This document shows positions 308-64,000 of a DNA stretch of 64,000 nt, piece after piece. The notes below the pieces were generated by a model. It did not search any database. It had not been told where the DNA came from and saw nothing but the letters and a program-made list of their open reading frames with translations. Position 1 is the first letter of the stretch; every line of letters starts with the position of its first letter. The translations under genes and the position numbers were made by a program. Source of the DNA: Xestospongia bergquistia (lineage: Eukaryota; Porifera; Demospongiae; Haplosclerida; Petrosiidae); assembly GCA_963965975.1 (NCBI GenBank), contig OZ014421.1, forward strand, positions 6,315,413 through 6,379,412, read 5' to 3'.

Positions 308-3300
308 ATGTCTTCGACTCTTGTTTCTCTGCCTTACGCTAAGGACCCTATCCCCCTTTCTGTCGAGGATAAAGTTACAATAGCGAGTGATTTATGGAGG
401 TATGCTGCTGAAACTATCAACAGTGTAGAAAGCGAATATAATTGGCTGTCTCGCGATCTCCCGGATCCTGCTATCACTGGTGTAGTAAGATGGTTGGGAA
501 CATTGCCTTCTATTAGTGATACGCAGTTATTTGCTGGAATACAGACGGTAAGTATTATCATATTTTTATACTTTTCTATTCCTTTTAATTTCACAAAAAT
601 TGATCATTGCAAAGCGGTCTGCTTTTTTGCAATATTTTGCATATATAGTGCGACCTATATATTTAGTGCTAGCCAGCACCTCCCACAAAAGAAACGGGAG
701 AGCCTGGTGCTATTTAACTGTTGCATTTAGAGTGGTTCGAGATTTTTACCAAATTAAACCTAGAGCTTGATGCAAGTACTAGCTAGCTATAGATATGTAT
801 AGAATTGAAAAGAGAAGATTATATTAATACAGTACTAGTACTAGCACTTGCATTTTGAGTGGCCAATACATTTATCATCAACAAAATTGTTAGTTGCAAA
901 CTTGTATGTTCCAATCAATATTGGTAGAATAGATCTCATGAATGATCAGCACATGCAGCTGAAATACTTTTCAGTTTCTTTGTTCATTGTCAGTCATGCA
1001 CCCTGTTGCTTGCATTCTTTGTTGTGTATTAATTGAAGCCACATTTGTTAAGGCCTGATTGCAAACTTTAGCTCTTTTAAAATGTGGCTGATGGTTTTAT
1101 GACAGTTTTAGTTGGTCTGCTTATAACAATTAATTACTGCAGATTACTGTATAGCTGGTAAAATTCAAAGGTCCTAATTAATTTTTGCAGTTGATCAAGA
1201 AAGAAGATATTTCATATAATTCGTGGGGAAAATTTCATGAGTGTGTGGCTATTAGTTGTTTCACATGTCCTAGCTGAATATTTACAAAGCATGATGTGGC
1301 TTCAAGATTTATAGGAAAATTTGAGTGCTTGAAACTGGTGGGAAACTGGAGTATATAGATCTAGAAAATTGTCAACAGACCTCAGATACTTGTAAGGAGA
1401 CATAACTGGACACACTTTATAGTCTCACACGGCCAGACATATAGGAATGTACTTCTCCTGTATACTTACTGTGTTAATATTAATCATTACTAGAAAGACC
1501 ATGCGCAATTGTGGTTTTGGTCAGTTTATTATCCAAAAAAACATGAAAGTTTGAACCCCTCAAATTTTACCAACTAACATTTTCAGTTTTTTTGATACAA
1601 TCATATGAAGATATTTGTTGTAATAATCATGTTTTTAAGTAAGAAATTAGCCATCTTGATAATGAACAATCGAATTGATTTACTAAATTAAAGACAATGA
1701 ATACAATTAGTGTCAGGTTATTGATAAGTTACTTTCGCGAGTTAGAACAGTTATAAACTGCTCTAACCCAAGAGAGTAACTTGCTTATTTATTTATTCAA
1801 TTGTTCACTTACTATAATATTAAAAGAATATTAGTACACCTACTTATTATCGACCTGACACTAAGTGTATTCATTGAGTTATTAATTAAATCGATTATTC
1901 ATTATTAAGATGGCAACTTTCTCACTTTTAGATACTGTTATTGCGATTTTGGATTCTATGGGTAATGTGGCAACCTGATGACAAGTTCAGAATAGAAAAC
2001 GGTCAATAGTTAGCAACATATAATAATAACACAGTGATTAAAGTAAGCAAGATTTATAGCTTTGTAAAAGTGTCAAAAATTATCGTAGAAATTGACTTCA
2101 TCAAAATTACATTTCTGCAAAATACTTGGTTAAAACATGATTAACTATTACAACAAGTATCTTCATATGATTGTATCAAAAAAGGCTAGAAAAAATTTCT
2201 ACCTGGTAGAAATATCAGAAATTTTTTTACTTGTAAATGCTCTATCATACAAATTATTATTTTTATGCAATTTCTTGACTTGAACAAAGCCATAAAGAAA
2301 CCAAAGTTATTCTTCTGTCCTTGGTGCTTTTGTATATAGTTAAAACAAATCTTACCCACAATGGGCCAATTTTAAAGTTGTTCCAGTGGCAAAGCTACAT
2401 CATGTCTGGATCCTATAAGCATCTACCTGATAAAAGTCTCCATGCAGTGTCCTGAAAAAATTTGTCATCTTTGTTTACAGATATGCCTATTGTATATAAG
2501 TAGAGTCACAAAGGTGTATAATGCTTACAAACAATTGTCATATTTTCAATGTTTTTTTCAGTGCAAAACAACATCAATTATAATAATTATTATATTATAT
2601 TTTAAGGACTTATATTGAGGCTTGAAGCTACTGTAAATGTCTTTGAGTGACACCATAGCTTTAACCAACTCTCCAGTCTTCATACTTCACAAAATATATT
2701 AGTCCCATGCAGCAACAACTGTACCATCAAAACATAATTTTTTACAGTTATTATTTTGTTATATTTTCAATTTTAATCTTGTTTTATCTATAGGACATCC
2801 CAGTCTCTACTGACCATGTCTTTTGTAGTGGTACTTATGCTGATCAGACATATTTTACTTGTCCTAAAGGATATGGAGTCTTCCTTCCAGTGGAATATGT
2901 AGTCCTTCATTCTAAAGATATAAAAGAGATACCAACACCAGCTTATCCTATGAATGCTAGACCACATGGTATTGCATTAGTGATCATATTTCAAAGTGGT
3001 CGCAAATTAAAGGAAGTTGAACTTGATGCTGAGAGTTTCATCTCTACTTTCAACTACTTACAATACACAGTTCAACCTTATAACAACAATGTTACTAGTT
3101 CACAGATGATACAACTAGTAGAAGAGATAGCTACTAAGGATCACACAGCTTATGACAGTTTTGTCTGTTGTATATCAGCCCCTGGAGCCAATGAGCACTA
3201 TATACGATGTAATGATAACGAATATGTAAATGTCTATGAACTAGTAGACATAGTACAACAGTGTCCTACACTTCAAAGAAAACCAAAACTCTTCTTTTTT

Positions 3301-6300
3301 GCTAGTGGCCGGAATTCAACTAATAAAGCACCTGCTGCCTCCTCTTCCTTTAAGATCGGCCTAGATACACTCGTAGTGTGGTCAACTCAGAAAAATAAAA
3401 GAAATAGTTACTATCAAAATTTTGGATCTAAATTTGCTACATCTTTTAAGAAGACTTTGCAGTTTAAATCAAAGAACTCTACACTCTTATCAATGATGTA
3501 TGATTTATCTGCATTTTTGTGTATGTTTCCACCAAGAGATTTTAAAAGAGCTGGTATTAAAGAAGGTCAATGTCCAGAAATTGAGTCACAATTAAAAGGT
3601 GATGTCCTTTTCTTTCATGAAGAAGAAATACCTGGTAAGTATAATATAGTTTGAGCATAATCTAAATTTGAATGATAAAACTCAACTTAGTTTGGCATGC
3701 ATCTTTCATGCATGCAGAACATTGACAATCCTTGACTTATTAAGACTGGTCAGTTATCCTAGGTGTGATAGATTAAGTAATTATTGTTAACTTTTACTAT
3801 CAAAGTGTTTTCGATTAAACACACTGACATAAGCATAATAATTACCAGTAACCTTGAATGATTTCATGGTATGAATATTTTTGTTTGACAGATTACTCTG
3901 GGTTGCTGAACAAAGCTCTTGATGAAGGCTACATCACTGTAAAGTGGACCCAGCTTGCCCTCTCTGGTCCTCCTGGATCTGGAAAATCCTGCTTTCTAAA
4001 GCTACTACTTGATGAACCTCCACCCAAAGTACATAACAGTACTCCAGTAACCACGACACCTGTAGTGAGGATGTTGGGGACTACTGGTCTAATGTCAAGA
4101 AGAGAGAAGACTGGTCAGCCATGGGTAAAGGTAGATGATCAGTCCTTAAAAACCATGATTGCTCAGACACTGAAAGAAGGAAATCTTAGAGGGCCAATAC
4201 TTGAAGAAGAAGAGGAAAGTGATGAAGAAGAGGATGATCAAGATGCTTCCCTTAGTTCTGATGCAACTGGAATCCGTCAAAGCATGAGAATATCATCATC
4301 TCTTTCTAATATTTCTGCAGCACAGAATGAGATAGTTCAACTCTTGCCTATAGTACAGAAGTCTTCTGAGCTTTTTCAAATGCATTGGATTTATGCTACT
4401 GATTCTGGGGGTCAGGCTGCATTTTTAGATATTGCTCCTGCTCTGCTTCGTTACAATTCAGTCAACATTCTTACACACAAGTTAAACGAGAAGCTTCAAG
4501 ACAAACCAAAATTTTATTTCAGTGTTAAAGGAAAACAAATTGGTGAGCCAGTAGAACGGCAGATGACACACCTACAACTTCTTGAAGGATCATTTCGGTC
4601 ATTAACATCAAGAGATTCACGTACTTTACCCAGGATTTACACCAAAATTTCCCATACTGAACCTCAGCTTATAGTACTGGGGACATTCCTTGATAAGATC
4701 CACGAGTGTAATGAGTCTCTGGATAAGAAAGATGCTATCCTCTTTGAGAAGTTAGAGCAATATAGTGAGATGAGACTAGACTATTGTGATTACGAAGACA
4801 AGATCATCTATCCCATTAATACAACTGCTAGAGATGACAATGAAACTAAAATGGCTAGTGAGATTCGTAGTAGAATATGTAAGTCTTACATTGAAGCAGA
4901 AATTCCAGCTCGATGGTTCTTGTTCAAGCTAGATTTAGACCATTTTCAGAAGACCACTAAAGACATGATTGTCAGCAAGTCAAAATGCTTGGAGATTGGT
5001 GCAGCTCTCAAGATGGATAGTGCAGATGTCGAAGCATCTCTAATGTATTACCATGATCTGACCATCTTTCTCTACTTTCCTGATATACTTCCTAATGTTG
5101 TATTCCTACATCCACAACCACTTTTTGATAAACTGTCTGAGTTGATCAGTATATCTTTTGCTGATGCTGTTGGACACTTAGTGGATGAGGGTACCTTTCT
5201 TCCTCCAGGAGCACACAAGAAGCTGAAAAATGAAGGAATCTTTCATCTCAACTTGTTGACATCATATCTATCAAGTGGATTTTCTAATGATTTTTCACCA
5301 TCTGACTTCTTAAAGTTGTTGGAAAATTTATTTATTGTTGCCCCCTTGTCTCAACCTGGAGAATATTTTCTTCCAAGTGTCCTCCCTACTGGAATACTTT
5401 CTGAGGGAATGAAAGCTCTTTTTATGCAAAATGTTGACCCCCTTATTCTGACGTGGAAAATGAAACCACTTCCTCAAGGTATTTTACCTGCATTATTCAT
5501 CAATCTTCTTAGACGCCAACAGTCACCAAAATTTGAATTGAAACTTCTAGAATCTTATGCTATGGCACAATATCGTAATGCTATCCAGTTAGACTGTATT
5601 GGTCCAGGAGGTGCTGTTCTATTAGTTGATGCTATTTACTGGCTAGAGATTTATTACTCTGGTCATCCAACTCGGTGCTCTGATATTCGCAGTACAATAT
5701 ATGAAGGGATTGACCAGGTTGTTGAGAAGTTCCATTATAAACCAATTCTGTCTATGCCTCAGGAGTATTTTTATTGCACAATGCACAAAACAACTGATCA
5801 TCTTTGTCGTCCAGATAATGAGAAAGAGAATTTACTATGTTGTGAAGATAGAGTATCAATCACTCAATTAGATGAATCACGTCAACAACCTTGGTTCCAA
5901 GAGATAACTGGAGGTTAGCTGTTACACAATTCAATGATTCATCTGATTATTTTACAATATCAATCATTTAAATTATTTTTCATTTTTAGATATTACTGAA
6001 GTGCTACATAAAATCCCAGATACTAAAGACATACTTAATCTTCTAGTAAACATTGAACACAAGTGGGAAAATATTGGAAAAGAACTTGGAGTTAGTGAAA
6101 GTGACCTAATAGCTGTATTTCGAGACAACAATGATGACAGAGCAAGATTGTCTTCAGTACTTACTAGCTGGAAAGAGAGTAAATCTACCCCTACCACTTG
6201 GGAGACTATCATTGAAGTAATGGAGAACCTCAAGGACAACTCAACAGCTAACAAGATACGTCAATTTCTAGCCAAGCATAGTTTTAAATATGCTCATTTG

Positions 6301-7764
6301 AATGACATACCAGTACTTCCAGGTGAGTTGTTCAATTAATCAATGTGCTTACAGTAAGTACATTTATGAAGCTAGAGATATTTGAAGTGAACAAGTGAAT
6401 CAGGTATGAACTAGAAATTGATCATGAGACATAACCAAGCCTTCTATTCTAATTAACAACTGTCTTGTGCATAGAGAGTTTTAGTTTAAGGTGTGACTGT
6501 TTCGACTAGTGTAATTGCCAATTGAATGTATAGGATATGACCTATTATTACAAAAGTTTCATGGTGTTGCAGATGACAAGTTTAGATGAGCCTATCTTGT
6601 TTTGTCTTGTAACATTATAGGATTTAGTCATTCCAGTCTATAGTTTAGAATGTAGTCAGTATCTTTAATATATCTACACCTTTATTACAAAAATTATGTA
6701 TATTGGAAACAACAGATTGGTATCTAGCATATTCCTGGTCATTTTCACTGTTTGAAAACATTTATAGTTGCATAATTATCACATGGAATACCACAACTAC
6801 ATTGTGGTAAATGAGTTTATATCAAATGCAAAAGCATATCTTTAACAGCTTCTACCCACATAGAAGTTTGTACTTGCTCCTACAATTTACAGACTTCCTA
6901 TTTGTCTTATGTGATTATTATTTTAATTTATTATGTAGATATTACTGCAGTGTTACAGAAGGTCCCGGATACTGCAGATTTACTTGGCCTACTAGGTAAC
7001 ATTGAAAATGAGTGGGAAAAAATTGGAAAAGCACTTGAAATCTTTGGAGATGATTTGATAGCTGCATTTCGAGACAACAACGATGACAGATCAAGACTGT
7101 CTTCAGTACTTGCTAGCTGGAAAAAGAATAAATCTATCCCCACCACTTGGAAAACTATCATTGAAGTAATGGAGAACCTCAAGCACAATCCAACAGCTAA
7201 CAAGATACGTCAATTTCTTGCCAAGCATGATGTCTTTTCTAAATATGCTCATATGAATGATTTCGTCAAAGATGTGCCACTCCCATCAGGTAAAATGTAC
7301 ATATGAAACATAGAGTGCAATTTACATAATACTGTGATCATCTATGCACACACATAGAAATCTCTCTATATAAGCAAATTTAATTTTTGTACACAAGTAC
7401 AAGTCTTATTGGTTTCTATTGTCTTATACATTATTATAAATACAAAACAAACTAATAAATCGTCTATTTTTATTGTGTAGTTATTACAGACATGTTGCAT
7501 AATGTACCAGATACCAAAGACCTATTTGATCTACTAGCTGATGTTGAACACAGGTGGGAAGATATTGGGAGAGCACTGAAAGTTCGTGGAAGTGTCCTAA
7601 TGACAGCATTTCGAGATCATAGTGATGCCAGTTCAAGACTCAACGTAATACTTAATGGCATTGAATCTATGAACATTACTTGGGAAAAAATTATTGATGT
7701 AATGGAGAGTCTTGGGGAATTTTCAACTGCAAAAAAGATAAATCAGTTTGCAAGCGCACAATAA
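308..7764 (+). CDS. Gene A: CAP-Gly / pseudo-caspase / GTPase-COR / 3x Death domain protein
   Basis: Six exons: 308-547, 2794-3634, 3892-5913, 5990-6322, 6939-7289, 7481-7764; they sum to 1356 codons. Order of parts: a CAP-Gly domain split by intron 1 (GVVRWLGTLP in exon 1; YFTCPKGYGVFLP in exon 2); a caspase p20/p10-like region (residues about 135-355, with DSFVCCIS and KPKLFF) whose His and Cys sites read APG and ASGRN, so it should be inactive. Then comes a P-loop GPPGSGKS (about 386-393), an acidic linker, a G3-like DSGGQ (about 531), a G4-like VLGTFLDK and a COR-like YYHDLTIFLYF. A Cys/His cluster follows, then three Death domains, one per exon, each with phase-1 borders. The ROC-COR-Death order recalls the DAPK1 C-terminus; CAP-Gly plus dead caspase is unlike it. 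A signalling scaffold is inferred. The start is the first ATG, in a context shared with the paralogs. Confidence 0.85.
1587..2183. mobile_element. Foldback (long inverted repeat) element in gene A intron 1
   Basis: The outer ends are inverted copies of each other: TTTGATACAATCATATGAAG at about 1591-1610 reads back from about 2160-2180, and the match continues inward. A second, inner inverted repeat of about 70-80 bases (about 1650-1730 against about 1845-1915, both containing GTGTCAGGT) gives a nested hairpin with a loop near 1740-1840. There is no coding capacity, so this is a non-autonomous MITE or foldback element. The family and target duplication could not be set. Confidence 0.7.
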
Positions 7765-18866: not shown

Positions 18867-21800
18867 ATGGTGGAAGAAACCGAAGTACAGCTCCCTTACG
18901 CTGCTGAGCCGTTGACTCTTTCTGTTGGTGACAAAGTCTCTTTACCGATTGAATCTACAGATGATATTGATGGAAAGAGCACTGAGCCTAATGGTACTAT
19001 TAAATGGTTAGGAATATTACCCACAATTAGTGAAAAACAATGGTTTGCAGGAATAGAAACCGTGAGTGCTTTAATTCTATGAAATTAAACTATTTCTTTT
19101 ACGTTCTCCTTTACAGGACAAAGAAATATCCTCAAGTTGTTGTGATGGTGCTTATGGTGTTCAGTATTATTTTACTTGTAGTAAAGGACATGGACTGTTC
19201 CTTCCAGTGGAATATGCAGTCCGTCACTCAACTAAAACAATAAAAGAAACAATTACACCAGCTTATTATATGAACACTAGACCACATGGTATTGCATTGG
19301 TTATTTCGTTAGAGAATGACAGTATAGACTCTAAGCACTTTGAAGAAACTTTTGAATATTTGCAGTATGCAGTTCAACACCACACCAGTATCTCAGAGAT
19401 GATGAAACTAGTGGAAGCTATAGATCACACAAATTATGACAGTTTTGTCTGTTGTATATCATCAGGTGGGGACAATTACCGTGCTAAAGAAATTGAAGAA
19501 GCAGACATCTATAAATTAGTAAATAAAGTGGAACGATCTCCTTCACTTAATGGAAAACCAAAGCTTTTCTTTATTCAATGTAGTCGAGTGGATAGTTCAC
19601 ACTCTTCATATGACATTGGTCCTGATGTTTTCGTTGCTTGGTCCAATCATAAAGGCAATGCAAGTCACTATGATTCTAAAGGTGGAAGTTGCTTTGTAAA
19701 AGCATTAAAGAGGGTATTCAAATATTACGCCAAAGATATCAACCTTGTAGTAATGATGGAGAAAGTATCAGCTATTATAAGCATGAGTCTATCAACACAA
19801 ACTGATACTGTGGGGCAATGTTGTGCAGTTGAATCCAAACTGAAAAAGAAAGTATTCTTTCTATCAAATTTTGGTAAGGCACTATAAATATTAGTAATTA
19901 TTAAATCTTCATTAATTATCTTTTGTTTGTAGATTACTCTCGTTTGCTTGACAGGGCTCATAATGAAGGTTATGTCACTGTTAAGTGGACCAAAGTCACT
20001 CTCTCCGGCCCTCCAGCAACTGGAAAATCATCTGTTATGAATTTATTGTTTGGTCTCAGTTTTCCAGATACTACATCATCTAAATTAAGGCCAATAGAGA
20101 CCACTTGTCTTATGTCAGTAAAAGAACAACCTGGGCCTTGGAATAAGGTAGACTATGAATCTTTAAAAGCTAAGGTTGCTCAAGCTATGAAGGAAGAACA
20201 CAGATCTCACAGCCCTATGCTGACAGCTGTAGAGGGGCAGTCTTCTGATGAAACTCCCAAGCAGAATAATAAGCCTTCTAATGAAGCTACACCACGTTCT
20301 CCATCTATAAAAGAAATAACCCAACTCTTACCTGCTGTAAAGAAATCTAATGAGCTTTATCAAGCTCACTGGATTTATGTCATTGACTCTGGGGGTCAGG
20401 CTGCCTTCTTAGATATTGCTCCAGCATTGCTACATTATAATTTGATCAATATAATTCCACTGAAGCTAAACAAGAAGCTCAAAGAAGACAAGCCTGAATT
20501 CTATTTTGATGTCAAAGGACAACTAATTCCTGAACCTGAGGAACGTCAGATGACCCATCTTCAACTGATTGAGTCATCATTTCGCTCACTAGCTTCAAGA
20601 GATCCACCTGATTTTCCTTGTGATGTCCATACTGATTGTTCATACAAAAACCCTCACTTGCTAGTTTTGGGTATATATTTTGACAAGATCACTGAGTCTA
20701 ATGAGTCTCTGGTTGAGAAAGATGCTATTCTCTGGAAGACATTAGAACAATTTGGTGAGGTACGACTAAACTATCGTGAAACCAGAGAGAAGGTGATCTT
20801 TCCTATCAATGCAATTGGTAGAGGTAAAGAGGAAATTAACATGGCTAATTTAATTCGTAACAGAATATGCCAGTCTTACATTGAAGCAAAAATCCCAGTT
20901 CGATGGTTCTTGTTCCAGCTAGATTTAGACTACTTCCAGAAGACCACTAAAACCATGATCATCAGCAAGTCAGAATGCTTAAGAATTGGCAAGGCTCTCA
21001 AGATGGACAGTAATGATGTTGATGCAGCCTTAATGTACTATCATGATCTGACCATTTTCCTATACTTTCATGAAGTCCTCCGTGATGTTGTATTTCTTCA
21101 TCCACAGCCACTTTTTAACAAGCTATCAGAGTTGATCAGTATATCTTTTGCTGATGCTGTGGATCATTTACAGGATGAAGGTATTCTTCTTCCTCCTTTT
21201 GCTCACAAGAAAATGAAAGCAGAGGGAACATTTAAACGAGAACTACTTAACTCCCTTAAAGATGGATTTTCTCCCATGTTTACTGCAGATAATTTTCTGG
21301 AGTTAATGGAGCATGTATTTATTCTTGTTAAGATGAATAATGATGAGTACTTTTTTCCAATTGCCCTTCCCATTACTGCTGACACCGAATCTTTGAGAGC
21401 TCCTTATAAGGGAAATGTTGATCCTCTTGTTCTAACATGGGATAAAAGTCCACTTCCTCCTGGTCTTTTTTCTGCATTGGTCATTAACCTTCTTAGCCGT
21501 AAAGTTTCACCAATGTTTAAACTTTTGCAGCCTTCAAAATCTCCAAAGGGGTTCTTCCAATTTCGTAATGCTATCCAGTTAGACTGTATTGGTCCAGGAG
21601 GTGCTGTTCTACTAGTTGATGCTGCCTACTGGTTAGAAATTCATTACTCTGATAATCCAAAAAAATGTCTTGTTATTCGAACTGCCATTGAGGAAGGGAT
21701 CAAGGTAGTTGCTAAGCAATTCCATTATAAGCCTATTGATTCAGACCCTCAAGAGCATTTTCACTGTACAATGCATAAAACAGATCCAATTCATCTGTGC

Positions 21801-22816
21801 CGTCCTAATGAAGATCACACAAGTCTCAGTTGTGGCACTTCTTCAGCTAATATTGACCACGTACGGCAGTTGCCATGGCTTTATAGTATAGCAAACAATC
21901 CAAATAAAGGTTAGGTGTTTGTAGTTGATAGTGGATATACATATGACAAAAGATAATAGATCAATCAATTTATAGCCAATAAAAGAAGCAGGTTTAATTT
22001 GTCAAGTACAAGTGTTTGCCAAACTTTTGTACAAAAATTGTTATCAATAATTACACTTCATGGGAGTTTGAAATTGCAAAGTTAGCTTTCCTTTATTGAT
22101 AGTTTGGCTCATTTATAAAAACTGTGATTTGACAGATTATACATAGCTGGTTGAGAAACATTGATTAATTACCCATGTGGCACCTGTCACTAGTTATAAG
22201 TTTTGATAATCACTAGTCTGCATGCAGGTATGTTACAGATTGATAATTCACTGTTAAAACTGTAGTTGCTGGGAGTCGACCTCTTGGGATTGTTATTATC
22301 TTGCAGTGAACTAGAGTAATTTAAAGCTATTACTAAGTTAATTATATATATAAACCTTCTATATATAAGAAAAAAGTGGGTATCCCATCGATAATATTTG
22401 TAGAACTTATATATTTCAGAAATACATGTAGTTGCCTAAACCAAACTAAATATCTAACAGGAGTTATATAACAAGATTTTTAAAAAATAATTTTCTTTTA
22501 ATTAACAACAGATAATTCTGCTGCTATATTTAAGCAAGAACCAGACACTTGTAAACTACTTGGTCTACTAACTGAGATTAACTATTTATGGGACAAAATT
22601 GGAGTTAGTCTTCAAGTTAAAAACAATATTATTGGAAGTTTGCACCGTAGTAGCAAGGATGATAGTTCTAAATTATATGAGATACTACAAAAATGGAAGG
22701 AATCTAAATCAAGTCCTGTGACATGGGAGAATATTATTACTGAAGTTGAAGGACCTATTGTGGGTAATTTTAAGAGAATAGCAGACAAGATTCGTGAACA
22801 TCTCATCTCTCAATAG
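18867..22816 (+). CDS. Gene B: CAP-Gly / pseudo-caspase / GTPase-COR / 1x Death domain protein
   Basis: Four exons: 18867-19061, 19117-19873, 19933-21909, 22512-22816; they sum to 1077 codons. It is the most diverged paralog. CAP-Gly is split by intron 1 (TIKWLGILP; YYFTCSKGHGLFLP). The caspase-like region has DSFVCCISSGG and KPKLFFIQCSR. A Cys is present, but one position before the catalytic site, where Ser stands, and the His is Gly. GTPase: GPPATGKSS, then IDSGGQ and LVLGIYFDK. COR-like: YYHDLTIFLYF and LPPGLFSALVINLL. The linker between P-loop and G3 is Ser/Pro/Asn-rich rather than acidic as in A, C and D. The Cys/His cluster reads HCTMHKTDPIHLCRP. The single Death domain exon is divergent (TWENIITEVEG). 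Its stop is only 169 bp before the gene C start codon. Confidence 0.85.
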
Positions 22817-22985: not shown

Positions 22986-25900
22986 ATGGCACTGCAAAGG
23001 CCTGTCCGAGTTTCTCTACCTTGCGTCAATGATTACACCCTTTTCTCTCTGTGTGTAGGGGACAAAGTTATTATTCCAACTGATGTTTGGGAGTATGCTG
23101 CAACAACTATTAACAAAACAGAACAGAAACGTGTTTGGCTCTCTGATGACCTACCTCCCACTATCACTGGTGTAGTAAGATGGTTGGGAACATTACCTAT
23201 TGTTGGAGATACACAGTTATTTGCTGGAATACAAACAGTAAGTATTTTATACCTGTCTGTTGCAAAATTTCAAGGCTGTATATATAACTAACCATCAACG
23301 ATTATGCAAGCTCTTCATCATCCAAATCCTTTGCTCTAAGCTTTTCAATCATGTAGCTTATTCATTTTAGTCTACTATGCTTTGTTCAAATTGATGACTG
23401 TGATATCACAGCACGCATGCACAGTTGCATACATGAAGAAATGATCATGCCGTTTGCAATTTAAGTGAGGAATTTAATTTCATGTTGGCCATAGGAACAG
23501 GGCCTGCCCCCCCCCTCCCCCCCAAAAAAGTTGACTCAAGCGTATGTATATACATATATCTTTCTTGTTACAAGACTAGTTCAACATAGTCTAGTGAGAT
23601 CATATATATTTTTTGCCATCTTGTGAGACCATAATATTCATTGCATGCGCAAACAGCTACATAAAGCTTTTAATTTCCTAAGGAGTCTCTGTTGGAGGAC
23701 CAACATATACATTATAGTATTATGGGCTAAATCTACATGTTACATACTAGGTACTTTCATGTTCTTAATTATAATATTAATTTACAGGACGGTCCAGTAG
23801 TTTATATTAACAACCGTTATCCCAGTGGTACTTATGCTGATCAAATATGTTTTACTTGTCCTGAAGGACATGGAGTCTTCCTTCCAGTGGAGTATGTAGT
23901 CCGTCATTCTAAAGATATAAAAGAGACACCAACACCAGCTTATCCTATGAATGCCAGACCACATGGTATTGCATTAGTTATAGTGATTGAAGAATACAGA
24001 AGTGGTTACAAACGTAAAGGAGCTGAATTTGACACTCAGAATTTCATTTCTACTTTCAAGCACTTACAATACACAGTTCAACCTTATAACAAAGTTACTA
24101 GCTCACAGATGATACAACTAGTAGAAGAGATAGCTAGTATGGATCATACAGCTTATGACAGTTTTGTCTGTTGTATATCATCCACTGGAGCCAATAATCA
24201 CTATGTACAGTGTAGCGATTCTGAAGTTGTTAATGTCTATCAACTAATAGATAAAATACAACAATGTCCTACCCTCCAAGGAAAACCAAAGCTGTTCTTT
24301 ATTGCCATTGACCGCCATATGACTACTGCAAAAACTGTTCCACCCGCTTCTTCACATGAGATTGGTCCTGATTCGCTTATTGTTTGGTCAACTCAGAAAG
24401 AAAAAAGTAATTCTTTATATCGTAGCAGTGGTACTAAATTCACTATAGCTTTGAGTAATATTTTAATGCTTAAATCAAAGAGCTCGACACTTCTATTAAT
24501 GATTGACGAAGTATCTGCATTTGTGAGTATGTTTCCGCCAAGATATTCTAGAAGAACATGTGTACTTTACGGGCAGTGTCCTGAAATTGAGTCACAATTA
24601 AAGAAGAGTGTTTTCTTTTTTCGTGAAGAGGAAATATCTGGTAAGTAACTTCTACCTTTTGTTTTTCAAGTGACTATCAATATCAATAAAACAGTATTTG
24701 TCAAAATAAAATTGGTACCAAGTCCTGCAATAGCTAGTGTTGAACCAAAGAGGCACAAAATTATTATTAATGATAATTTGTTATCTAATTGTTGAATTTA
24801 CAATCTTCCCTGAAGTTTTTTTGCTTACCCCCTATACTTTGAAAATGTCACTGCTTGCATTATTGCATGATGTCAATATATTTGTGACAGCTATAATACC
24901 ATCGTTATAGTTAGCTGATTGAATTATATTTCAAAAACCTATTAAATCATGGTTCTTTGCATTAACCAAGATCCTATGTGTATGTAGATCCTGATAGATC
25001 TGTTACTAGCATGTAAATGTACTAGGATAGGCAATAACATATTGTACATGTTGCAAGTAATATACTGCTAATATAATTATTCATAAATTTGAGGAAATTA
25101 ACTTAGCAATGTGCAACTTAACATACTTTTTTGTCTAATAGATTATGCTTACTTATTGAACCGAGCTCTTGATGAAGGCTATGTCACTGTTAAATGGACA
25201 AAATTAACCTTGCTTGGTGCTCCAGGTACTGGAAAGTCATCTGTTTTGAAGCTCTTGCTGGGTGAAGGTCCTCCTGACCACCATCATAGCACTTCTGTCA
25301 TTACAGCACCTGAAGTAAGGAAGGTAGAGATCAGTGGTTTCATAGCAGGAGAAGACACCCAATCTTGGAATAAAGTAGATTATGAGTCTCTGAAAGCTAT
25401 GATTGCTGGGACCATGAAAGGAGGCATCAAGTCTGGACCATTGTTAGAATTACCGGATGCAGACAACAGCTCATCACTAGTTGAAGATTCTGATGATGAC
25501 TTTGAGGATGACGATACAATTCATGATAACTCGACATGTAGCCCAGAAAACCCTCAATTTAAGAAAATTCTTTCCTTACCTATTCCATCTTCTGCAGCAA
25601 AGGAAGAGGTGGCTCAACTATTACACACTGCACCAAAGTCTGATGAGCTTTATAACACTCATTGGATCTATGCTATAGATTCAGGGGGTCAGGCTGCATT
25701 TCTAGACATTGCGCCAACTTTGCTTCGCTATAATTCAGTCAACCTTCTTACACTCAAGTTAAACGAGAAGCTTCAAGATCGACCAAAATTCTACTTTAGT
25801 ATTAGAGGGAAACAAATTGGTGAGCCAGTAAAGCGACAGATCACAAATCTACAACTTCTTGAAACATCCTTTCGTTCACTATCATCTGTAGATCCACCTA

Positions 25901-28900
25901 ATCTTCGGGGCATTTACAAAAATTGTTCCCACAAGCAGCCTCACCTTATAGTACTGGGGACATACTATGATAAGATTAGTGAGTGTAGTGAGTCTCTGGA
26001 TGAGAAAGATGCTACCCTTTGGTCCTCTTTGGAGCGATTTGATGAGATACGACTAAACTATCGTGAATCCAGAGAGAAGGTGATCTTTCCTATCAATGCA
26101 ATTGGTAGAGATAAAGAGGAAATTAAAATGGCTAATTTAATTCGTAACAGAATATGCCAGTCTTACATTGAAGCAGAAATCCCAGCTCGGTGGTTCTTGT
26201 TCCAATTAGATTTAGACAAGCTACACAAGATCTCCAATACCACAATCATCAGCAAATCTAAATGTTTGGAGATTGGTAAGGCTCTCAAGATGGACCGCAA
26301 AGATGTTGAAGCATCTCTAAGGTATTACCATGATCTGACCATCTTTCTCTACTTTCCTAAAGTCCTTCCTAATGTTGTATTCCTACATCCACAACCACTT
26401 TTTGATAAACTGTCTGAGTTAATCAGTATCTCTTTTGCTGATGCTGTGGATTATTTGGAGGAAAGACATATCTTTCTTCCCCCAGGAGCTCACAGGAAGC
26501 TCAAAGATGAAGGAATGTTTCATCAAGACTTGCTGATATCTTCTTTGTCAAGCGGCTTTACTGAAGATTTTTTAGCAGCTGATTTCTTAAAGTTGCTAGA
26601 GGATTTGCTTATCGTTGCCCCTCTACATGGAGAATATTTTCTTCCAAGTGTCCTCCCTACTAAAATTCTTGAAAATAAAATGAAAGGTTCATTCAGCCAA
26701 AATGTTGATCCTCTTGTTCTGACGTGGGAAATGAAACCACTTCCTCAAGGGATTCTACCTGCATTAGTTGTCAATCTTCTCAGCCGCAAATGGTCACCAT
26801 TGTTTGACATGAATTTTCTAGATTCTGATGCTATGATAAAATATCGCAATGCTATCAGTTTAAGATGTGTCAGACAAGGAGGTGTAGTTCTATTAGTTGA
26901 TGCTATTTATTGGCTGGAGATTTATTACTCTGGTCATCCAAGTTTGTGTCCTGTTATTCGCAGTGCAATATATGAAGGAATTAATATAGTTGTTAAGAAG
27001 TTTCAGTATAAGCCAATTGTCTCAGTGCCTCAAGAACGTTTTCATTGTACGTTTCATGCAGCAATTGATCATCTTTGTCGTCCAGATGATGAAAAACAAA
27101 CGTTAAAATGCTGCAAAGATCGAGTATCAACTGCTCAACTAAATTCACGTCAGGAATCTTGGTTCCTAGAGATAGTTCCTGAAACTGGAGGTTAGATAAT
27201 TTGCATGCAGACATGAAGTAAATAATTAAAATTGATGTGCCAATTCTACTATATGAATTATTTTGTTCTTTTTTGTAGATATTACTGAAGTGTTACAGAA
27301 GGTCCCTGATACTGAAGAATTGCTTGGCCTACTAGCTGATGTCGAACATAAGTGGGACAAGATTGGAACAGCACTTAAAATTAGTGGTAATAATTTGATA
27401 GCTGCATTTCGAGACAACAATGATGACAGAGCAAGACTGTCTTCAGTACTTACTAGCTGGAAAGACAGTAAATCTACCCCTACCACTTGGGAGACTATAA
27501 TTGACGTAATGGAAACTCTTGAATGTAACTCAACAAAAACAAAGATTCAGCAATTTCTCAAAAAACAGGAAGTTTATTCGAAATATGCTCGTATGAAGGA
27601 TTTTGTCACCAATGAGGCTGTACCACTAGGTAAATTGTTTACTTTTGATTAAAAATTTAAACATACATACATGTGTATGTAAATGTAGCCAGCTGGTTTT
27701 TGGCTTGCTATGTGTCTGCAATGTTAACATATTGTACTATCATTTAATTGGTATACAGTCACCAAATTTTAAAGTTGATTATTTTTACAAATTTATATTA
27801 TGTGTAATAGTATGTTAAATTATGTTTCGCAAGTAGAGCATAGCTTCCCACCTCATAAATGAAGGATGAAATGAAGCTATAGTTATTAGTAATTTCAATA
27901 TTTTATCTAACTATTCATCTGTCTTTTATTTAATATCAGATATCTCTACAGTACTACAGAAGGTTCCAGATCCTACAGATTTACTTATTCTATTAGCTGA
28001 TGTTGAAGACAAATGGAACAAGATTGGAAAGGCTCTGAAAGTCAGTCAAAATGTCTTGACAAAAGCATTTCAACAAGACAGCGATGATGACAATGGAAGA
28101 CTCTCTTTAGTACTCTCTAGTTGGATTGAAACTAAACCTACCCCTACCACTTGGGAGACTATCATTGATGTCATGAAGACTCTTAAACTTCAGTCTACAT
28201 CAGACAAGATTCAAGAATTTCTAATTAAGGGAGAAGTACACACAAAGTATGCTAATACTGAGGATTTTGGATCTCTACATGTAATACAGGGTAAGTTATG
28301 TTATGTTAATATTTCCTTTATGAGAATGACCATCTCTCACTTTAACTCAAAGCATTGCCTATAGCAGACAGTTCTTATTTTGTTGGTTGGTCCAGTATAA
28401 TTACGCAATAGAGTATATGCCTATCTACAATACCAACAGTCACTTTTGTTAAATCAGTTTTAGTGTTATAATAGCTATATTAGCAGCTGATATTTTATTT
28501 GAATTGAATTGCCTCATATAATTCCTCTCTGTATAGATATCTCTACAGTACTACAGAAGGTTCCAGATACTACAGATCTACTTGATCTATTAGTTGATGT
28601 TGAAGACAAATGGAACAAGATTGGAAGGGCTCTGAAAGTCAGTCAAGATGTCTTGATTGAAGCATTTCAACAGGACAGCGATGATGACAATGCAAGACTC
28701 TCTTTAGTACTCTCTAGTTGGATTGAAACTAAACCTACCTCTACCACTTGGGAGACTATCATTGATGTCATGAAGACTCTTAAACTTCAGTCTACATCAG
28801 ATAAGATTCAAGAATTTCTATCAAAGGAAGAAGTATATTCAAAGTATACTGATACTGAGGATTTTAAGTCTCTGCACGTAATACAGGGTAAGTAAGTGTT

Positions 28901-29265
28901 ATAAGATGTCTTTAATAAGGTAAATGATTTCTATAGATATTACTGCAGTGCTACGGAAGGTCCCAGATACCATGGATTTACTTCGACTACTATCTGATGT
29001 TGAACATAAGTGGGACAAGATTGGAAAGGAATTGAAAGTTAATAAAACTGTCCTGGCAGCTGCTTTTCTAGACTGTGATGATCACAGATCAAGATTCTCT
29101 TTAGTACTTCGTACCTGGAAGGATACCAAGACTACCCCCGCCACTTGGGAGACTATCATTGATGTCATGAAGAGTCTTAATCATAATTCTATAGCTAATA
29201 AAATTCGCCAATTCCTAGCAAAGGAAGAAATTTACTCAAAGTACACTGGCAGTAGTACCTGGTAA
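22986..29265 (+). CDS. Gene C: CAP-Gly / pseudo-caspase / GTPase-COR / 4x Death domain protein
   Basis: Seven exons: 22986-23237, 23788-24640, 25142-27190, 27279-27629, 27940-28290, 28537-28887, 28937-29265; they sum to 1511 codons, the longest paralog here. Parts as in gene A: CAP-Gly (GVVRWLGTLP; CFTCPEGHGVFLP); caspase-like domain with CISSTG and KPKLFFIAIDR in place of the His and QACRG sites; P-loop GAPGTGKSS; an acidic linker; IDSGGQ; VLGTYYDK; COR-like region; Cys/His cluster RFHCTFHAAIDHLCRP. Four Death domains follow, each on a phase-1 exon starting D-I-T/S-x-V-L. Exons 5 and 6 (both 351 nt) are nearly identical, a recent duplication. An ATG-less upstream extension was rejected; 22986 is the first ATG. 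The stop (TGGTAA) falls where the other repeats have a splice donor, so an alternative 3' end is possible. Confidence 0.85.
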
Positions 29266-34845: not shown

Positions 34846-34961
34846 GCTGACTTCCGTAAATTAATAACTTACGTACAAATGGGCGTGGCTAATGATGGAA
34901 ACCACACTAGCACTAGTCAGCAGGGATGGAAAGTTAATATTTTACTAGTCTAGAGAGCAAA
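34846..34961. promoter_or_regulatory. 116-bp bidirectional promoter CIAO1/PI4KB
   Basis: Start codons of two conserved genes lie head to head 116 bp apart. The spacer holds an ETS-like ACTTCCG and a GGGCGTGGC (KLF/Sp1-type) box near 34879-34887. No TATA box. Confidence 0.65.
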
Positions 34962-40013
<5,052 letters not shown>

Positions 40014-53663: not shown

Positions 53664-56762
<3,099 letters not shown>

Positions 56763-57181
56763 AGATATCATCCACACACACACACACACACACATAGTAA
56801 TAATATAGTACTTGTCATCTCATAATGTGTACATCAATGATACTGGATTGAAAATATGTCTTAGTTGAAAAAAAAATCACTTTTACAAAACTAATTAAAT
56901 AAGTAAAGGACACGATCAGTCAAATTAAATAGTTCACTACAATAATAATAATAATAATAATAAATAAATAAATAAAGGTCAAAATAAATGAACAAAAGTT
57001 AAGTCAACATGTTTATCATCAGATGAAGACACTCTTACATTGATGATATTAAGAATAAACAACTTTTATAAAACTAGAAGGACACAACTATTTGATCAGT
57101 CAAATTTACAAAACAAAAGTAAATAAAAGCAGTCAAATTAAAGGTACATCATAAGAAAATTTAAAGGGGAAAGATATGGCA
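56763..57181. other. Tail-to-tail spacer hnRNP-like/gene D
   Basis: Contains (CA)n at about 56776-56794 and (AAT)n near 56940-56970; no gene. The segment is duplicated at 62083-62497. Confidence 0.7.
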
Positions 57182-60100
57182 TCAGACAAAGTCCTTTTTT
57201 CCAAGGTATTTGGAATATACCTTAGGCTCACTCAAAAACTGTTGTATCTTGACAGCTGTTGATTTTTGGTCAACAATAGATCCTTCAACAGCTGTGATAA
57301 CTGTATCCCAAGTAACATCAGTTGACCTGGTATTCATCCAAGCCTCAAGTACTTCATATAATCGTGTACTGTTGTCCTTGTTACTTTGAGACAGACCCTC
57401 CAAATCACTGTGTTCTACTTCAAGTGCTATTCCAATCATTTTCCATTTATGTTTGATACAAGCTAATAAATCAAGTAAGTCACGAGGAACAGGTACTTTC
57501 TTTAAAATGGCAGAGATATCTGTGTTAATAAGAAAGAGAGAGAGAGAGGACATAATTGAACATGTAAATAATATGTACAAACTACAATATATAACAATGA
57601 ATTTTATAGTTTGAAAAAAACAAGTAATAGTTAGTATTTTCCTCAAGTCTACCTACAACTATAAACTGTTGTCATGTACACCTGTGGTTTAATACAAGAC
57701 TACTATCATATTGTAAAGCTAACAGTAAAATTGTTATTCTTTGATAAACTTGTGGAGTACATGAAGGCTTCATATGTGTACTGACTAGCAGTAAATTGTT
57801 ATTAAACTTGTGGTATGAGTAATGGAGTGAAATGTGATGAGTATGAGGGAATTTTATTATCTCCATATATGGTATTATCATTAATATTGAGGATTTGTTA
57901 AAACAAGGAAATACTAATTGTCTACAACTAATGTATTATAAATAAATTATAATAACTAAGTTACAAAGATTAAATAAACATCATCTTATTACTAGTTATT
58001 AAGTGATAACTTACTAACCTTGTTGTTCAATAGGTTTATTTGAGATAGTCATCTCTACAAGCCATGGTACTTGACGTGACTGGTTAATATCAGCCATTAA
58101 TGCATCGTCTTTACAACATGTTAGCTTCTTCTGATCTTCATTAGGACAACAAAGATGATCACTTGTAATTGCTTCATGTATCGTACAATGAAAATACTCG
58201 TGAGGTATAGATAGAGTAAGTTTGTAATGGAACTTCTTAACAACAGCTTTGACTCCTTCTTTAACTGAATGTCGAATAACACAGCATTTGTTAGAAGGAC
58301 CAGAGTAATAAATCTCTAACCAATAAATAGCATCAACTAATAGAACTGCACCTCCTGGACCAATACATTTCAAACGAATAGCATTACGATATTGTGGATT
58401 ACCAGATCCAAGATCAAATTGTGGTGAAGATTTGCGATTGAGAAGGTTGACAACCAAAGCAGGAAAGAGACCTTGAGGAAGTGACTTCATATCCCACGTC
58501 AAAATGAGAGGGTCTGTATTAGATGTAAAGATGGCTTTAGAACTTTCTGAGAGAGTAGCAGTAGGAAGGACACTTGGAAGAAAATACTTTCCTGGATGAG
58601 GTAGAGATGCAATAATAAATACATCTTCCATTAACTTTAGAAAATCATCAATTGAAAATTCAGCAGAAAATCCTTGTGACAAGCATGATTCTAGCAACCT
58701 CTTTTCAAAGGTTCCTTCATTCTTGAGTTGTCTGTGAGCTCCTGGAGGAAGATAGATGTTACACTCATCTTCTAAATGATCCACAGCATCAGCAAAAGAG
58801 ATACTGATCAACTCAGACAGCTTATCAAAAAGTGGCTGTGGATGTAGGAATACAACATTAGGGAGGACTTTGTGAAAGTAAAGAAAGATGGTCAGATCAT
58901 GATAATACTTCAAGGCTCCTTCAACGTCATGAACATCCATCTTTAATGGTGCACCAATCTCCAAACATTTAGATTTGCTAATAATCATGGTATTATGGGT
59001 CTTGTGTAGTTGGTCTAAATCTAACTGGAACAAGAACCATCGAGCAGGAATTTCTGCTTCAATGTAAAACTGACATATTCTGTTACGAATTATATTGGCC
59101 ATTTTAATCTCATTATCTCCTCTGCCAATTGCATTGACTGGAAAGATTACCTTCTCTCTACCTTCACGATAATTTAGTCGTACCTCATCAAATCGCTTCA
59201 GAGTGCACCAAAGGGTAGCATCTTTATCATCCAGAGACTCACTACACTTACTAATCTTATCATAGTATGTCCCCAGTACTATATGGTGAGGCTCAGTGTG
59301 GGAAAATTTGCTGTAAATGTTACGAAGATTAGGTGGATTTACAGATGATAGTGAACGAAATGATGCTTCAAGAAGTTGTAGGTGTGTCATCTGTCGTTCC
59401 ACTGGCTCACCAATTTGTTTTCCTCTAACACTGAAGTAAAATTTGGGTTGATCTTCAAGCTTTTCATTTAACTTGAGTGTAAGAATGTTGACTGGATTAT
59501 AATGTAGCAGAGCAGGAGCAATGTCTAGGAATGCAGCCTGACCTCCAGAATCTATAACATAGATCCAGTGAGTGTTATAAAGCTCATCAGACTTTGATAC
59601 AGTAGGTAATAGTCGAGCCACCTCTTCTCTTGCTGGAGAAAGTGGAGTAGGTAAGGAAGTAACTTCAGGACTTTCTTTGGTAGGTGTGGTCAATACAGCA
59701 TCTATATCGTCATCATCAGTGTCATCATCACCAGTCTCCTGTAAACTGTTGTCTACATCTTCTCCTTCTGACACTGATGGTTTACACTTAATACCTCCTT
59801 TCATTGTTCTAGTAACCATAGCTTTTAGAGACTCATAGTCTACCTTATCCCAACACTGGGTACTAGATGAACCAGTTGGTTCTCCTCCTGCTACAAGACC
59901 AGCAATCTCTACCTTCCTTACTTCAGGTGCTTTGATAACAGGAGTACTATGATGGTTGTCAGGTGGAGGTTCATTGAGTAGTAACTTGATAATGGAGGAC
60001 TTTCCAGTAGCTGGTGCACCAGACAAGGTAAGTTTGGTCCATTTAACAGTAACATAGCCTTCATCAAGAGCTTTTTCCAGTAAACCAGAATAATCTAATG

Positions 60101-61390
60101 ATAATAATAATATAAGTTTCTATTATTATAACATTAATATACTTACCAGGTAATTCATCTTCATAGAAAAAGTAGACTTTACTTTTTAATTGTGACTCAA
60201 CTTCAGGACATTGTGCTGTATATTTCCCAGTACGACTAGATATATGTGGAGGGATCATACTCACAATTGTAGATACTTCATTTGTCATTGAAAGGAGGTC
60301 AGTGGTCTTTGATTTTAATTTGATAACCTTCATTAAATGAAACACAAAATAGCATCCAATGGTATAAGAATTCACACTAGTGGAACGTTGCTTTTGAGTT
60401 GACCACACGATAAGTGTATCAGATCCACTTTGGTGAGGAATAGGTCCAGGTCTATGTGCACCTTTTAAACGATTACATCTAATTAAAAAAATCTTTGGTT
60501 TTCCTTGAAGTGTAGAACACTGTTGTATTTTGTCTACTAGTCCATAGACATTAACATATTTGTCATCACTACATGCTACATAGTGGTTATTACCTCCAGG
60601 TGCTGATATACAACAGACAAAACTGTCATAAGCTGTATGATCCATAGTAACTATTTCTTCTACTAGTTGTATCATCTGTGAACTAGTAACATTGGTATAA
60701 GGTTGAACTGTGTATTGTAGGTGCTCAAAAGTAGAAATGAAATTCTGAGTATCAAATTTACCCCCAGTGACCTTTCTACCATCTGAGTATTCTTCAATCG
60801 GCATAATCAATGCAATACCATGTGGTCTGGCATTCATAGGATAAGCTGGTGTTGGTGTCTCTTTTATATCTTTAGAGTGACGGACTATATACTCCACTGG
60901 AAGAAAGACTCCATGTCCTTTAGGACAAGTAAAATATGTTTGATCACCATAAGTACCACTGGGATAACGGTTGTCAGTAGAAATTGGAGTGTCCTGTAAA
61001 TGTAAGTGTAGTAAACACAGCGAACTATGAAAGACAGCCATACTTTATTGTTAAATTAATGTTTAAGGTTTAGGATTTATAGTATTAATTTCACAGATGT
61101 CTTGCACTTACTGTCTGTATTCCAGCAAATAATTGTGTATCACTAATAGGAGGTAATGTTCCTAACCATCTTACAACACCAGCTATAACAGGATCTGAGA
61201 CATCTGATAACCAGGTATGAGCTTTTCTGTTATTAACATAGCCAGCTGCTAAGTTCCAAAATTCAGTTGGTATAGTAACTCTATCTCCTACAGAGAGGAG
61301 GATAGGTTCATCATCATAAGGTAGAGAGACAGGCACAGATAATAGACTCTCCTGTCCTGCAGCCCTTGCTACCTCGCTCGCTACGGCCAT
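57182..61390 (-). CDS. Gene D: CAP-Gly / pseudo-caspase / GTPase-COR / 1x Death domain protein
   Basis: Four minus-strand exons: 61112-61390, 60147-60993, 58019-60094, 57182-57519; 1179 codons. CAP-Gly: GVVRWLGTLPPISD and YFTCPKGHGVFLP. Caspase-like: DSFVCCISAPGG and KPKIFLIRCNR; Asn replaces the catalytic Cys and Pro the His. P-loop GAPATGKSS; acidic linker (DDDTDDDDID); IDSGGQ; VLGTYYDK; COR-like YYHDLTIFLYF and LPQGLFPALVVNLL; Cys/His cluster YFHCTIHEAITSDHLCCP. One Death domain exon (DLLDLLACIKHKW, VTWDTVITAVEG), closest in sequence to the gene E exon. Opposite in strand to A-C. Confidence 0.85.
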
Positions 61391-61504
61391 ATCACTATTG
61401 TCATAATAGAATGCAATTATCTCTAATATTACAATTACTCATATTATATTATCTAGGTAGGTGTATATTTCTCTCTCAATTCGAAATGAACTTTCTTCTT
61501 ACAG

Positions 61505-62082: not shown

Positions 62083-62244
62083 AGAGATATCATCTACACA
62101 CACATAGTAATGATATAGTACTTGTTATCTCATAATATGTACATCAATGATACTGGATTTAAAAAAATTTTGTTGAAAAAAAATCACTTTTACAAAACTA
62201 ATTAAATAAGTAAAGGACACAATCAGTCAAATTAAATAGTTCAC

Positions 62245-62286
<42 letters not shown>

Positions 62287-62497
62287 AATAAAGGTCAAAA
62301 TAAATGAACAAAAGTTAAGTCAACATGTTTATCATCAGATGAAGACACTCTTACATTGATGATATTAAGAATAAACAACTTTTATAAAACTAGAAGGACA
62401 CAAAAATTTGATCAGTCAAATTCACAAAACAAATGTAAATAAAAGCAGTCAAATTAAAGGTACATCATAAGAAAATTTAAAGGGGAAAGATATAGCA
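62083..62497. other. Duplicated spacer before gene E
   Basis: Copy of 56763-57181 with a longer (AAT)n tract and a shorter (CA)n. No gene. Confidence 0.75.
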
Positions 62498-64000
62498 TTA
62501 GACAAAGTCCTTTTTTCCAAGGTATTTGGAATATACCTTAGGCTCACTCAAAAACTGTTGTATCTTGACAGCTGTTGATTTTTGGTCAACAATAGATCCT
62601 TCAACAGCTGCGATAACTGTTTCCCAAGTAACATCAGTTGACCTGGTATTCATCCAAGCCTCAAGTACTTCATATAATCGTGTACTGTTGTCCTTGTTAC
62701 TTTGAGACAGACCCTCCAAATCACTGTGTTCTACTTCAAGTGCTACTCCAATCATTTTCCATTTATGTTTGATACAAACTAATAAATCAAGTAAGTCACG
62801 AGGAACAGGTACTTTCTTTAAAATGGCAGAGATATCTGTGTTAATAAGAAAGAGAGAGAGAGAGACATAATTGAACATGTAAATAAAATGTTTAAACTAC
62901 AATATATAACAATGAATTTTGTAGTTTGAAAAAAAACAAGTAATAGTTAATATTTTCCTCAAGTCTACCTACAACTATAAACTGTTGTCATGTACACCTG
63001 TGGTTTAATACAAGACTACTATCATATAGTAAAGCTAACAGTAAAATTGTTATTCTTTGATAAACTTGTGGAGTACATGAAGACTTCATATGTGTACTAA
63101 CTAACAGTAAATTAAACTTAGTAGTTTGAAAAAAAAGAAACAAAGAAAATATTTATTTTACTCAAGTCTATCTACAACTATTTTATCAATGACTAAACTA
63201 TTAATATACTCTATTAAAAATATCATAATATATCAGTAACTACTGTTAGTGTTAATGTGACTATAAGAAAGACTTCATATGTGTTCTAACTAACAGTAAA
63301 ATTGTTATTCTTTGATAAACTTGTGGTATGAGTAATGAGTGAGTACATGAAATGTGATGAGTATGAGGGAATTTTATTATCTCCATATATGGTATTATCA
63401 TTAATATTGGGGATTTGTTAAAACAAGGAAATACTAATTGTCTACAACTAATGTATTATAAAATAAATTATAATAACTAAGTTACAAAGACTAAATACAC
63501 ATCATCTTATTACTAGTTATTAAGTAATAACTTACTAACCTTGTTGTTCAATAGGTTTATCTGAGACAGTCATCTCTACAAGCCATGGTATTTGACGTGA
63601 CTGGTTAATATCAGCCATTAATGCACCTTTCTCACAACATGTTAGCTTCTTCTGATCTTCATTAGGACGACAAAGATGATCACTTGTTTTATGTATCATA
63701 CAATGAAAAAGCTCTTGAGGTATTGATAGAGTAAGCTTGTATTGGAACTTCTTAACAACAGCTTTGACTCCTTCTTTAACTGAATGTCGAATAACACAGC
63801 ATTTGTTAGAAGGACCAGAGTAATAAATCTCTAACCAGTAAATAGCATCAACTAATAGAACAGCACCTCCTGGACCAATACAGTCTAACTGGATAGCATT
63901 ACGATATTGTGGATTCCTAGATCCAAGATCAAATTGTGGTGAAGATTTCCGAGTGAGAAGGTTGACAACCAAAGCAGGAAAGAGACCTTGAGGAAGTGAC
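62498..64000 (-). CDS. Gene E (partial): GTPase-COR / Death domain paralog
   Basis: Only the last two exons are in the window: 62498-62835 (Death domain) and 63540 to the right edge (end of the COR-like exon). Very similar to gene D, including stop position and intron; the intron (62836-63539) is longer through a local insertion and duplication near 63110-63300. The Cys/His cluster is present (LFHCMIHKTSDHLCRP). Differences from D in that cluster are mostly synonymous or conservative, so it looks functional. The N-terminal parts lie beyond the window. Confidence 0.8.

Follow-up and report, generated by a model that had tools for sequence, protein, structure and literature searches.

A sponge gene cluster predicted to join CAP-Gly, a catalytically dead caspase fold, a Roc-like GTPase-COR core and Death domains in one chain

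The window analysed here is the whole 64,000-nucleotide stretch of Xestospongia bergquistia DNA at G000:C11:6315413-6379412, from a genome of 146 Mb in 21 contigs, and it holds a cluster of paralogous genes whose predicted products begin with a CAP-Gly domain and end in one to four Death domains. Long frames on both strands were read and compared, with splice sites set where the similarity between paralogs stops, and this gave four complete models (genes A, B, C, and D) in which all frames are open and all introns are GT-AG. Behind the CAP-Gly domain each model has a caspase fold, a Roc-like GTPase, a COR region, a Cys/His region, and the Death domains (3 in gene A, 1 in B, 4 in C, and 1 in D), which is the order given in a preliminary description of this DNA. 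That description also counted five paralogs on one exon plan; this holds for A to D, whereas gene E runs out of the window and contributes only the 3' part of its GTPase exon and a Death exon, its 5' half lying past base 64000 in locus L020. The genes and their exons, with the evidence for each, are as follows.

Gene A, 308-7764 (+), 1356 aa
308..547 (+): exon 1, CAP-Gly first half (model; Pfam on joined exons)
2794..3634 (+): exon 2, CAP-Gly second half and dead caspase (model, Pfam, residue alignment)
3892..5913 (+): exon 3, Roc-like GTPase, COR, Cys/His region (model, Pfam, G motifs)
5990..6322 (+): Death exon 1, phase 1-1 (model, Pfam)
6939..7289 (+): Death exon 2, phase 1-1 (model, Pfam)
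7481..7764 (+): Death exon 3, the last, with stop (44-50% identity to other Death exons)
Gene B, 18867-22816 (+), 1077 aa
18867..19061 (+): exon 1, CAP-Gly first half (model; Pfam on joined exons)
19117..19873 (+): exon 2, CAP-Gly second half and dead caspase (model, Pfam, residue alignment)
19933..21909 (+): exon 3, GTPase-COR (model, Pfam)
22512..22816 (+): single Death exon with stop (model; below the Pfam cut-off)
Gene C, 22986-29265 (+), 1511 aa
22986..23237 (+): exon 1, CAP-Gly first half (model, Pfam)
23788..24640 (+): exon 2, CAP-Gly second half and dead caspase (model, paralog identity, residue alignment)
25142..27190 (+): exon 3, GTPase-COR (model, similarity)
27279..27629 (+): Death exon 1 (model, Pfam)
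27940..28290 (+): Death exon 2 (model; below the Pfam cut-off)
28537..28887 (+): Death exon 3 (model, Pfam)
28937..29265 (+): Death exon 4 with stop (model, Pfam)
Gene D, 57182-61390 (-), 1179 aa
61112..61390 (-): exon 1, CAP-Gly first half (model, Pfam)
60147..60993 (-): exon 2, CAP-Gly second half and dead caspase (model, Pfam, residue alignment)
58019..60094 (-): exon 3, GTPase-COR (model)
57182..57519 (-): Death exon with stop (model, Pfam)
Gene E, cut by the window edge
63540..63999 (-): GTPase-COR exon, 3' part (inner end by analogy with D; continues in L020)
62498..62835 (-): Death exon (3' end by analogy with D)

One exon grammar is common to the four models, with intron 1 in phase 0 and introns 2 and 3 in phase 1. 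Each non-terminal Death exon is phase 1-1, so that Death domains could be added or skipped without a frame shift. The CAP-Gly domain is divided between the first 2 exons: when these are joined, Pfam scores it at 35.4 bits in A, 37.7 in B, 32.7 in C, and 42.4 in D against a cut-off of 26.5, whereas exon 2 alone stays below that cut-off in A (20.0), B (17.9), and D (21.2). Since the domain rises above the cut-off only after joining, the splice from exon 1 to exon 2 is supported. GKNDG, the motif of microtubule-end CAP-Gly proteins, is absent from all four models. Elsewhere in the genome, at G000:C2:5376437-5376571 (+), the CAP-Gly part of exon 2 has one isolated match of 62% identity, which represents either a stray exon or another user of the module.

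Judged by sequence, the caspase exon keeps the p20/p10 fold proposed for it in the preliminary description but has lost both catalytic residues. Its profile spans p20 and p10, with caspase-3 as the best PDB match (E 1.7e-27, profile positions 50-277), and Pfam finds Peptidase_C14 in A, B, and D at 65-88 bits (69.6-87.8 for single exons); the call for gene C is based not on Pfam but on its caspase exon being 64-66% identical to those of D and A. The catalytic His and Cys are replaced or gapped in all 25 copies read, 4 in the window and 21 outside it, and we therefore rejected an active protease for these copies; judged from the residues, it is very unlikely that the caspase part cleaves anything. 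Among the 24 copies that could be aligned, the pocket residues of caspase-3 are kept to different degrees, Arg64 being present in 9, Gln161 in 4, and Arg207 in none. Ordinary caspases with an intact active site are present on C11 at 6.69-6.71 Mb, about 0.3 Mb from the family, where L031a and L032 retain both His and Cys and a third, L031b, lacks both. L031a is the closest non-family caspase row at 39% identity, and L032 has Death effector domain (DED) matches of 120 bits in an upstream frame. Locus L031 thus places one intact and one degenerate caspase next to each other.

In the third exon, the P-loop GK[ST], DSGGQ, and the G4 Asp are each present in 23 of 25 copies, totals that combine 21 exons (with 21, 20, and 21 of the motifs, respectively) with L014, L017, and two copies on contig C13. 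Between the P-loop and DSGGQ lie about 145 residues that are partly acidic and low in complexity, and a conserved Cys/His region stands behind the COR. COR-A directly follows the GTPase in 12 of 14 copies at E <=0.01 (best 2.5e-10). It scores 34.6 bits in the gene B exon alone, slightly below the cut-off of 35.3, and is not found at E <=0.1 when the full model A is scanned as one chain; COR-B is matched in 1 of the 14 GTPase exons (E 0.0037). The COR-like neighbour and the P-loop and DSGGQ motifs that had been claimed for this core were thus recovered, although Pfam does not recognise the GTPase as Roc, a label that we use because of the G motifs together with the adjoining COR-A. A PDB profile search with 4 GTPase-COR sequences gave only weak LRRK1 and Rab-family matches (E 0.12 to 0.49), and with 14 sequences these were gone, leaving weak P-loop and chance matches (best E 0.23), so that no solved relative of the GTPase-COR core is apparent by sequence. 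NCBIfam gave no match in 4 exons, nor did a scan of viral contigs with peptide patterns from the gene A GTPase exon. On C13, at 2.28-2.29 Mb, two divergently placed copies (L029 and L030) look dead in both enzyme folds of the chain.

Pfam accepts 6 of the 8 Death exons scanned at its cut-off of 22.6, with the exon of gene B (20.2 bits) and the second of gene C (19.3 bits) falling below. Death domains are abundant in this genome: all 150 candidates scored, from 983 genome-wide, are matches, which puts their number at at least 150. A silicatein-like active-site pattern gave 0 matches, a result that speaks neither for nor against a sponge.

A genome search with the gene D caspase exon returned 61 rows, and 36 loci belong to the family by an identity of at least 42% in that search together with their genomic place (20 on C11, 14 on C12, and 2 on C13). 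A GTPase exon lies downstream in 34 of the 36, the other 2, on C12, being outside the comparison; in 31 a scored GTPase row follows directly on the same strand, and in 3 more (L017, L029, and L030) the exon is seen in the DNA. The gap between caspase and GTPase exons is 55-58 bp in 24 of these 31 copies and 71-988 bp in the remainder, and where splice sites were placed the intron measures 52-59 bp. Outside the window 21 copies were read, and in every one the caspase precedes the GTPase, with the order the same on three contigs. A CAP-Gly exon stands upstream in 20 of the 21, the exception being L030, and a Death match downstream in 20, the exception being L033, where the CAP-Gly exon of the next gene follows; the best-scoring Death matches of L023 and L030 contain a stop. 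Because the phases are conserved in the four models, the gaps are so narrowly set, and the order is common to three contigs, the view that everything from CAP-Gly to Death is encoded as a single polypeptide, also put forward in the preliminary description, is well supported as a prediction from exon structure.

How the parts of this chain change was followed in the minus-strand array on C11, with 12 to 14 sequences depending on the exon. By median dN/dS the CAP-Gly exon stands highest at 0.85, with 39 of 91 pairs above 1, followed by the caspase exon at 0.66 (2 of 78 pairs), Death at 0.40 (10 of 78), and the GTPase exon at 0.32 (0 of 66). Within the caspase exon, the former substrate-groove loops, which make up 75 of 233 columns when mapped on caspase-3, are the fastest-evolving part: mean entropy is 1.08 in the loops vs 0.42 in the rest of the domain, a difference that 232 circular shifts never reach, the loops hold 34 of the 46 caspase sites with the highest variability, and pooled dN/dS is 1.11 for loops vs 0.47 for the core. 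One stretch of the CAP-Gly exon also shows much faster amino-acid change. In a site test of M2a over M1a, run in our own implementation, the caspase exon gave 2dlnL 81.7 with 12% of codons at omega 3.5, and the CAP-Gly exon 35.4 with 15% of codons at omega 4.3; 15 of the 19 selected caspase sites are in the groove loops, the Arg64 and Gln161 positions included, and the two halves of the caspase exon run apart are each significant (2dlnL 47.1 and 42.7). Over L013-L025 the caspase exon has diverged at silent sites roughly twice as far as neighbouring exons (median dS 0.22 vs 0.11), and it may stay diverse while gene conversion keeps the GTPase exons of the array alike.

The best-supported view of these features is a receptor-like switch with a conserved GTPase-COR core, a Death output, and a sensor half that has no enzymatic function left yet varies at the very places where an enzyme would be conserved. 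The predicted architecture is solid as far as sequence goes, and for the mechanism that we infer from it our leading reading is an intracellular ROCO-Death chassis carrying a CAP-Gly and dead-caspase sensor, perhaps an integrated decoy, to which we assign a probability of a little under 0.4. A sensor or scaffold role for the dead caspase fits better than a self-cutting switch, which is unsupported because none of the 25 copies keeps the His or the Cys. If the dead caspase serves as bait, it could act as a decoy for whatever binds the active site of caspases, for example caspase inhibitors made by microbes or viruses, and the binding of such a ligand would free or lock the Roc-COR switch. GTP-dependent assembly would then gather the one to four Death domains, which could nucleate a Death-domain complex and engage downstream caspases such as L031a and L032. 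The GTP-dependent COR dimerisation and the death or immune output suggested in the preliminary description may have a place in such a scheme. A more far-reaching version seems to us doubtful, though worth stating: a large clustered family of invertebrate immune receptors on a ROCO-Death rather than an NLR chassis, in which the disabled caspase would be a diversifying integrated decoy whose groove reads caspase-directed pathogen factors, while Roc-COR sets the threshold and the Death tail triggers cell death.

Several points weigh against reading the chain as a sensor on a ROCO-Death switch. Pfam Roc finds no match in the 14 copies (E <=0.01) or in the exons of A and B (E <=1). The switch is not intact in every copy: L027 has NSGGQ in place of DSGGQ, the P-loop Lys and the G4 Asp are missing from the two C13 copies, of which L030 has no DSGGQ either, and L014 and L017, which are probably broken copies in the C11 array, have all three G motifs on a GTPase exon split over two frames. 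The C13 and frame-broken copies lower our confidence slightly. As for the rates, the loop limits used for mapping are those that we take to hold for caspase-3, and loop variability was measured on family copies only, while surface loops vary in many proteins. The control GTPase exon is also significant under M2a (2dlnL 68.8; 5% of sites at omega 4.0), 6 of its 17 selected sites falling in the acidic linker, so the values of 2dlnL may be too high owing to recombination or misalignment. Across 11 copies, distances in the caspase exon show no correlation with those in the GTPase exon (Spearman -0.10), and exons seem to have been exchanged between copies in the array. Because this control failed and the distances are uncorrelated, we give the concentration of change in the loops more weight than the likelihood ratios.

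The nearest rival, which is compatible with a receptor switch, is a cFLIP-like partner role, in which the dead caspase would pair through its dimer strand with active caspases, blocking or allosterically activating them, and the Death tail and Roc-COR would set when and where this happens. The beta-6 strand forms the caspase dimer in known structures, and it is conserved here despite the dead site, with an entropy of 0.14 in the C11 array, where the domain has 0.64, and of 0.80 vs 1.19 over all 24 aligned copies; L031a and L032, on the same contig, could supply the active partners. cFLIP carries DEDs and neither CAP-Gly nor GTPase. Where its tandem DED precedes the dead caspase, the family has CAP-Gly, with Death domains and Roc-COR in addition, and no DED is present in models A and B. 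On its own, moreover, such a role leaves unexplained both the expansion to 36 loci and the concentration of the fastest change in the groove loops and the CAP-Gly stretch, and taken alone we regard it as unlikely.

Somewhat less probable again is relaxed constraint, by which the caspase-like domain would be a mere structural spacer whose loops drift neutrally, with the function residing in GTPase-COR-Death. Pooled loop dN/dS is close to 1 and could indeed reflect relaxation once catalysis was lost, which also counts against the decoy; the GTPase exon has a much lower dN/dS than the caspase exon, and stops occur in the caspase exon at 2 of the 36 loci (L015 and one C12 locus). However, the exon is open in 24 of the 25 copies read, the core of the domain is conserved, and the 12% of caspase codons at omega 3.5 are supported in both halves of the exon, with the caveat of the failed GTPase control. 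Least probable by far is that two adjacent genes, one for CAP-Gly-caspase and one for GTPase-COR-Death, merely resemble one: exon-wise reading cannot by itself prove joined transcripts, but we rejected separate genes on intron length, phase, and exon order, since the usual gap leaves no space for a gene boundary, phase 1 is kept on both sides of it, the order is constant on three contigs, and in each of the four window models the frame stays open as far as the donor.

The GTPase-COR core extends well beyond these clusters, and the preliminary description missed a far larger family with other upstream modules. A genome search with the gene C GTPase exon gave 66 rows at at least 65 loci, with 65 of 617 first-look candidates scored, and these are exon loci rather than proven genes. 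Of the 66 rows, 35 (34 loci) lie on C1, C2, C3, C4, and C9 with no family caspase exon nearby, and most of the 34 have open frames of 670-763 aa at 50-58% identity; conversely, the 24 other caspase rows compared all lie more than 20 kb from any scored GTPase row. Four caspase-less loci, one each on C1, C2, C3, and C4, were read in part. In the C1 and C2 copies an ankyrin exon precedes the GTPase (Pfam Ank 40.2 and 38.9 bits) and a Death exon follows it, 50 and 46% identical to that of gene D, both linked to it by position only; the AG|AT phase-1 acceptor before the GTPase is as in the family. Upstream of the GTPase in the C4 copy lies a Death-like exon that shares 39% identity with that of gene B and in which Pfam reports no match, and the C3 copy (L042) combines an upstream Death exon with a downstream ZU5 match (2385-3065 (-), 21.4 bits, cut-off 21). 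ZU5 behind a ROC-COR exon recalls UNC5/PIDD-type combinations. Because these loci carry different neighbour exons, GTPase-COR looks like a common chassis for several modules, the CAP-Gly and dead-caspase half being one of them.

Among known systems, CYLD resembles the family in bringing CAP-Gly into a cell-death or NF-kB context, but it has a USP deubiquitinase, of which models A and B show no trace at E <=0.1. NLR and other STAND receptors have NACHT or NB-ARC, and Pfam finds neither in models A and B or in the 14 GTPase exons. Closest by plan is DAPK1, where Roc-COR is likewise followed by a C-terminal Death domain. Unlike the family, DAPK1 has an N-terminal kinase, which is not found in models A and B at E <=0.1, and ankyrin repeats before Roc, which A and B lack and the C1 and C2 relatives have upstream; the family has instead CAP-Gly, a dead caspase, and up to four Death domains. 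Parts of PMC6337361 place the DAPK1 group among ROCO proteins as those with a Death domain and without leucine-rich repeats (LRRs), and the sections of that paper and of PMC11378527 that concern human ROCO GTPases give four proteins, LRRK2 and DAPK1 among them.

A precedent for ROCO proteins as candidate immune receptors comes from the brown-algal LRR-ROCO proteins of PMC11378527, which like the family are an expanded ROCO set whose N-terminus diversifies while the core is GTPase-COR; the algal proteins vary in their LRR exons, whereas here CAP-Gly and the dead caspase vary and a Death tail is present. The bacterial AP-GTPase-COR conflict systems of PMC8195603 offer a second, with COR and GTPase joined to fast-evolving recognition repeats and variable effectors, caspases among them. 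In those passages recognition is by LRRs and the caspase is one of the C-terminal variable domains, whereas in the family it is N-terminal and dead; the term CAP-Gly is absent from the main text of PMC8195603. Among the titles and abstract starts listed by a literature search, none describes the present architecture, which, with subscription journals and protein databases outside its scope, is weak evidence of novelty.

If the sensor reading is true, GTP switches of the ROC-COR type would hold, in this genome, a job usually assigned to NLRs, and the family would provide an animal example of an integrated decoy derived from a cell-death enzyme. One branch of ROC-COR has CAP-Gly and a dead, fast-diversifying caspase where the C1 and C2 copies read have ankyrin, and the genome offers a natural panel for studying how Roc-COR could connect a sensor at the N-terminus with Death domains as output.

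Between about 29.3 and 57.1 kb of the window no family exon was seen among the frame comparisons listed, and other genes lie there. Open frames at 44025-44557 (+) derive from a Tyr/Ile/Leu/Cys simple repeat and are probably a microsatellite rather than a gene. A weak match to the PI4KB accessory domain at 34938-35657 (+), with 24.4 bits against a cut-off of 27, marks an unrelated gene between the clusters, and RRM-type RNA-binding exons of a further unrelated gene are found at 54440-54871 and 56062-56316 (+).

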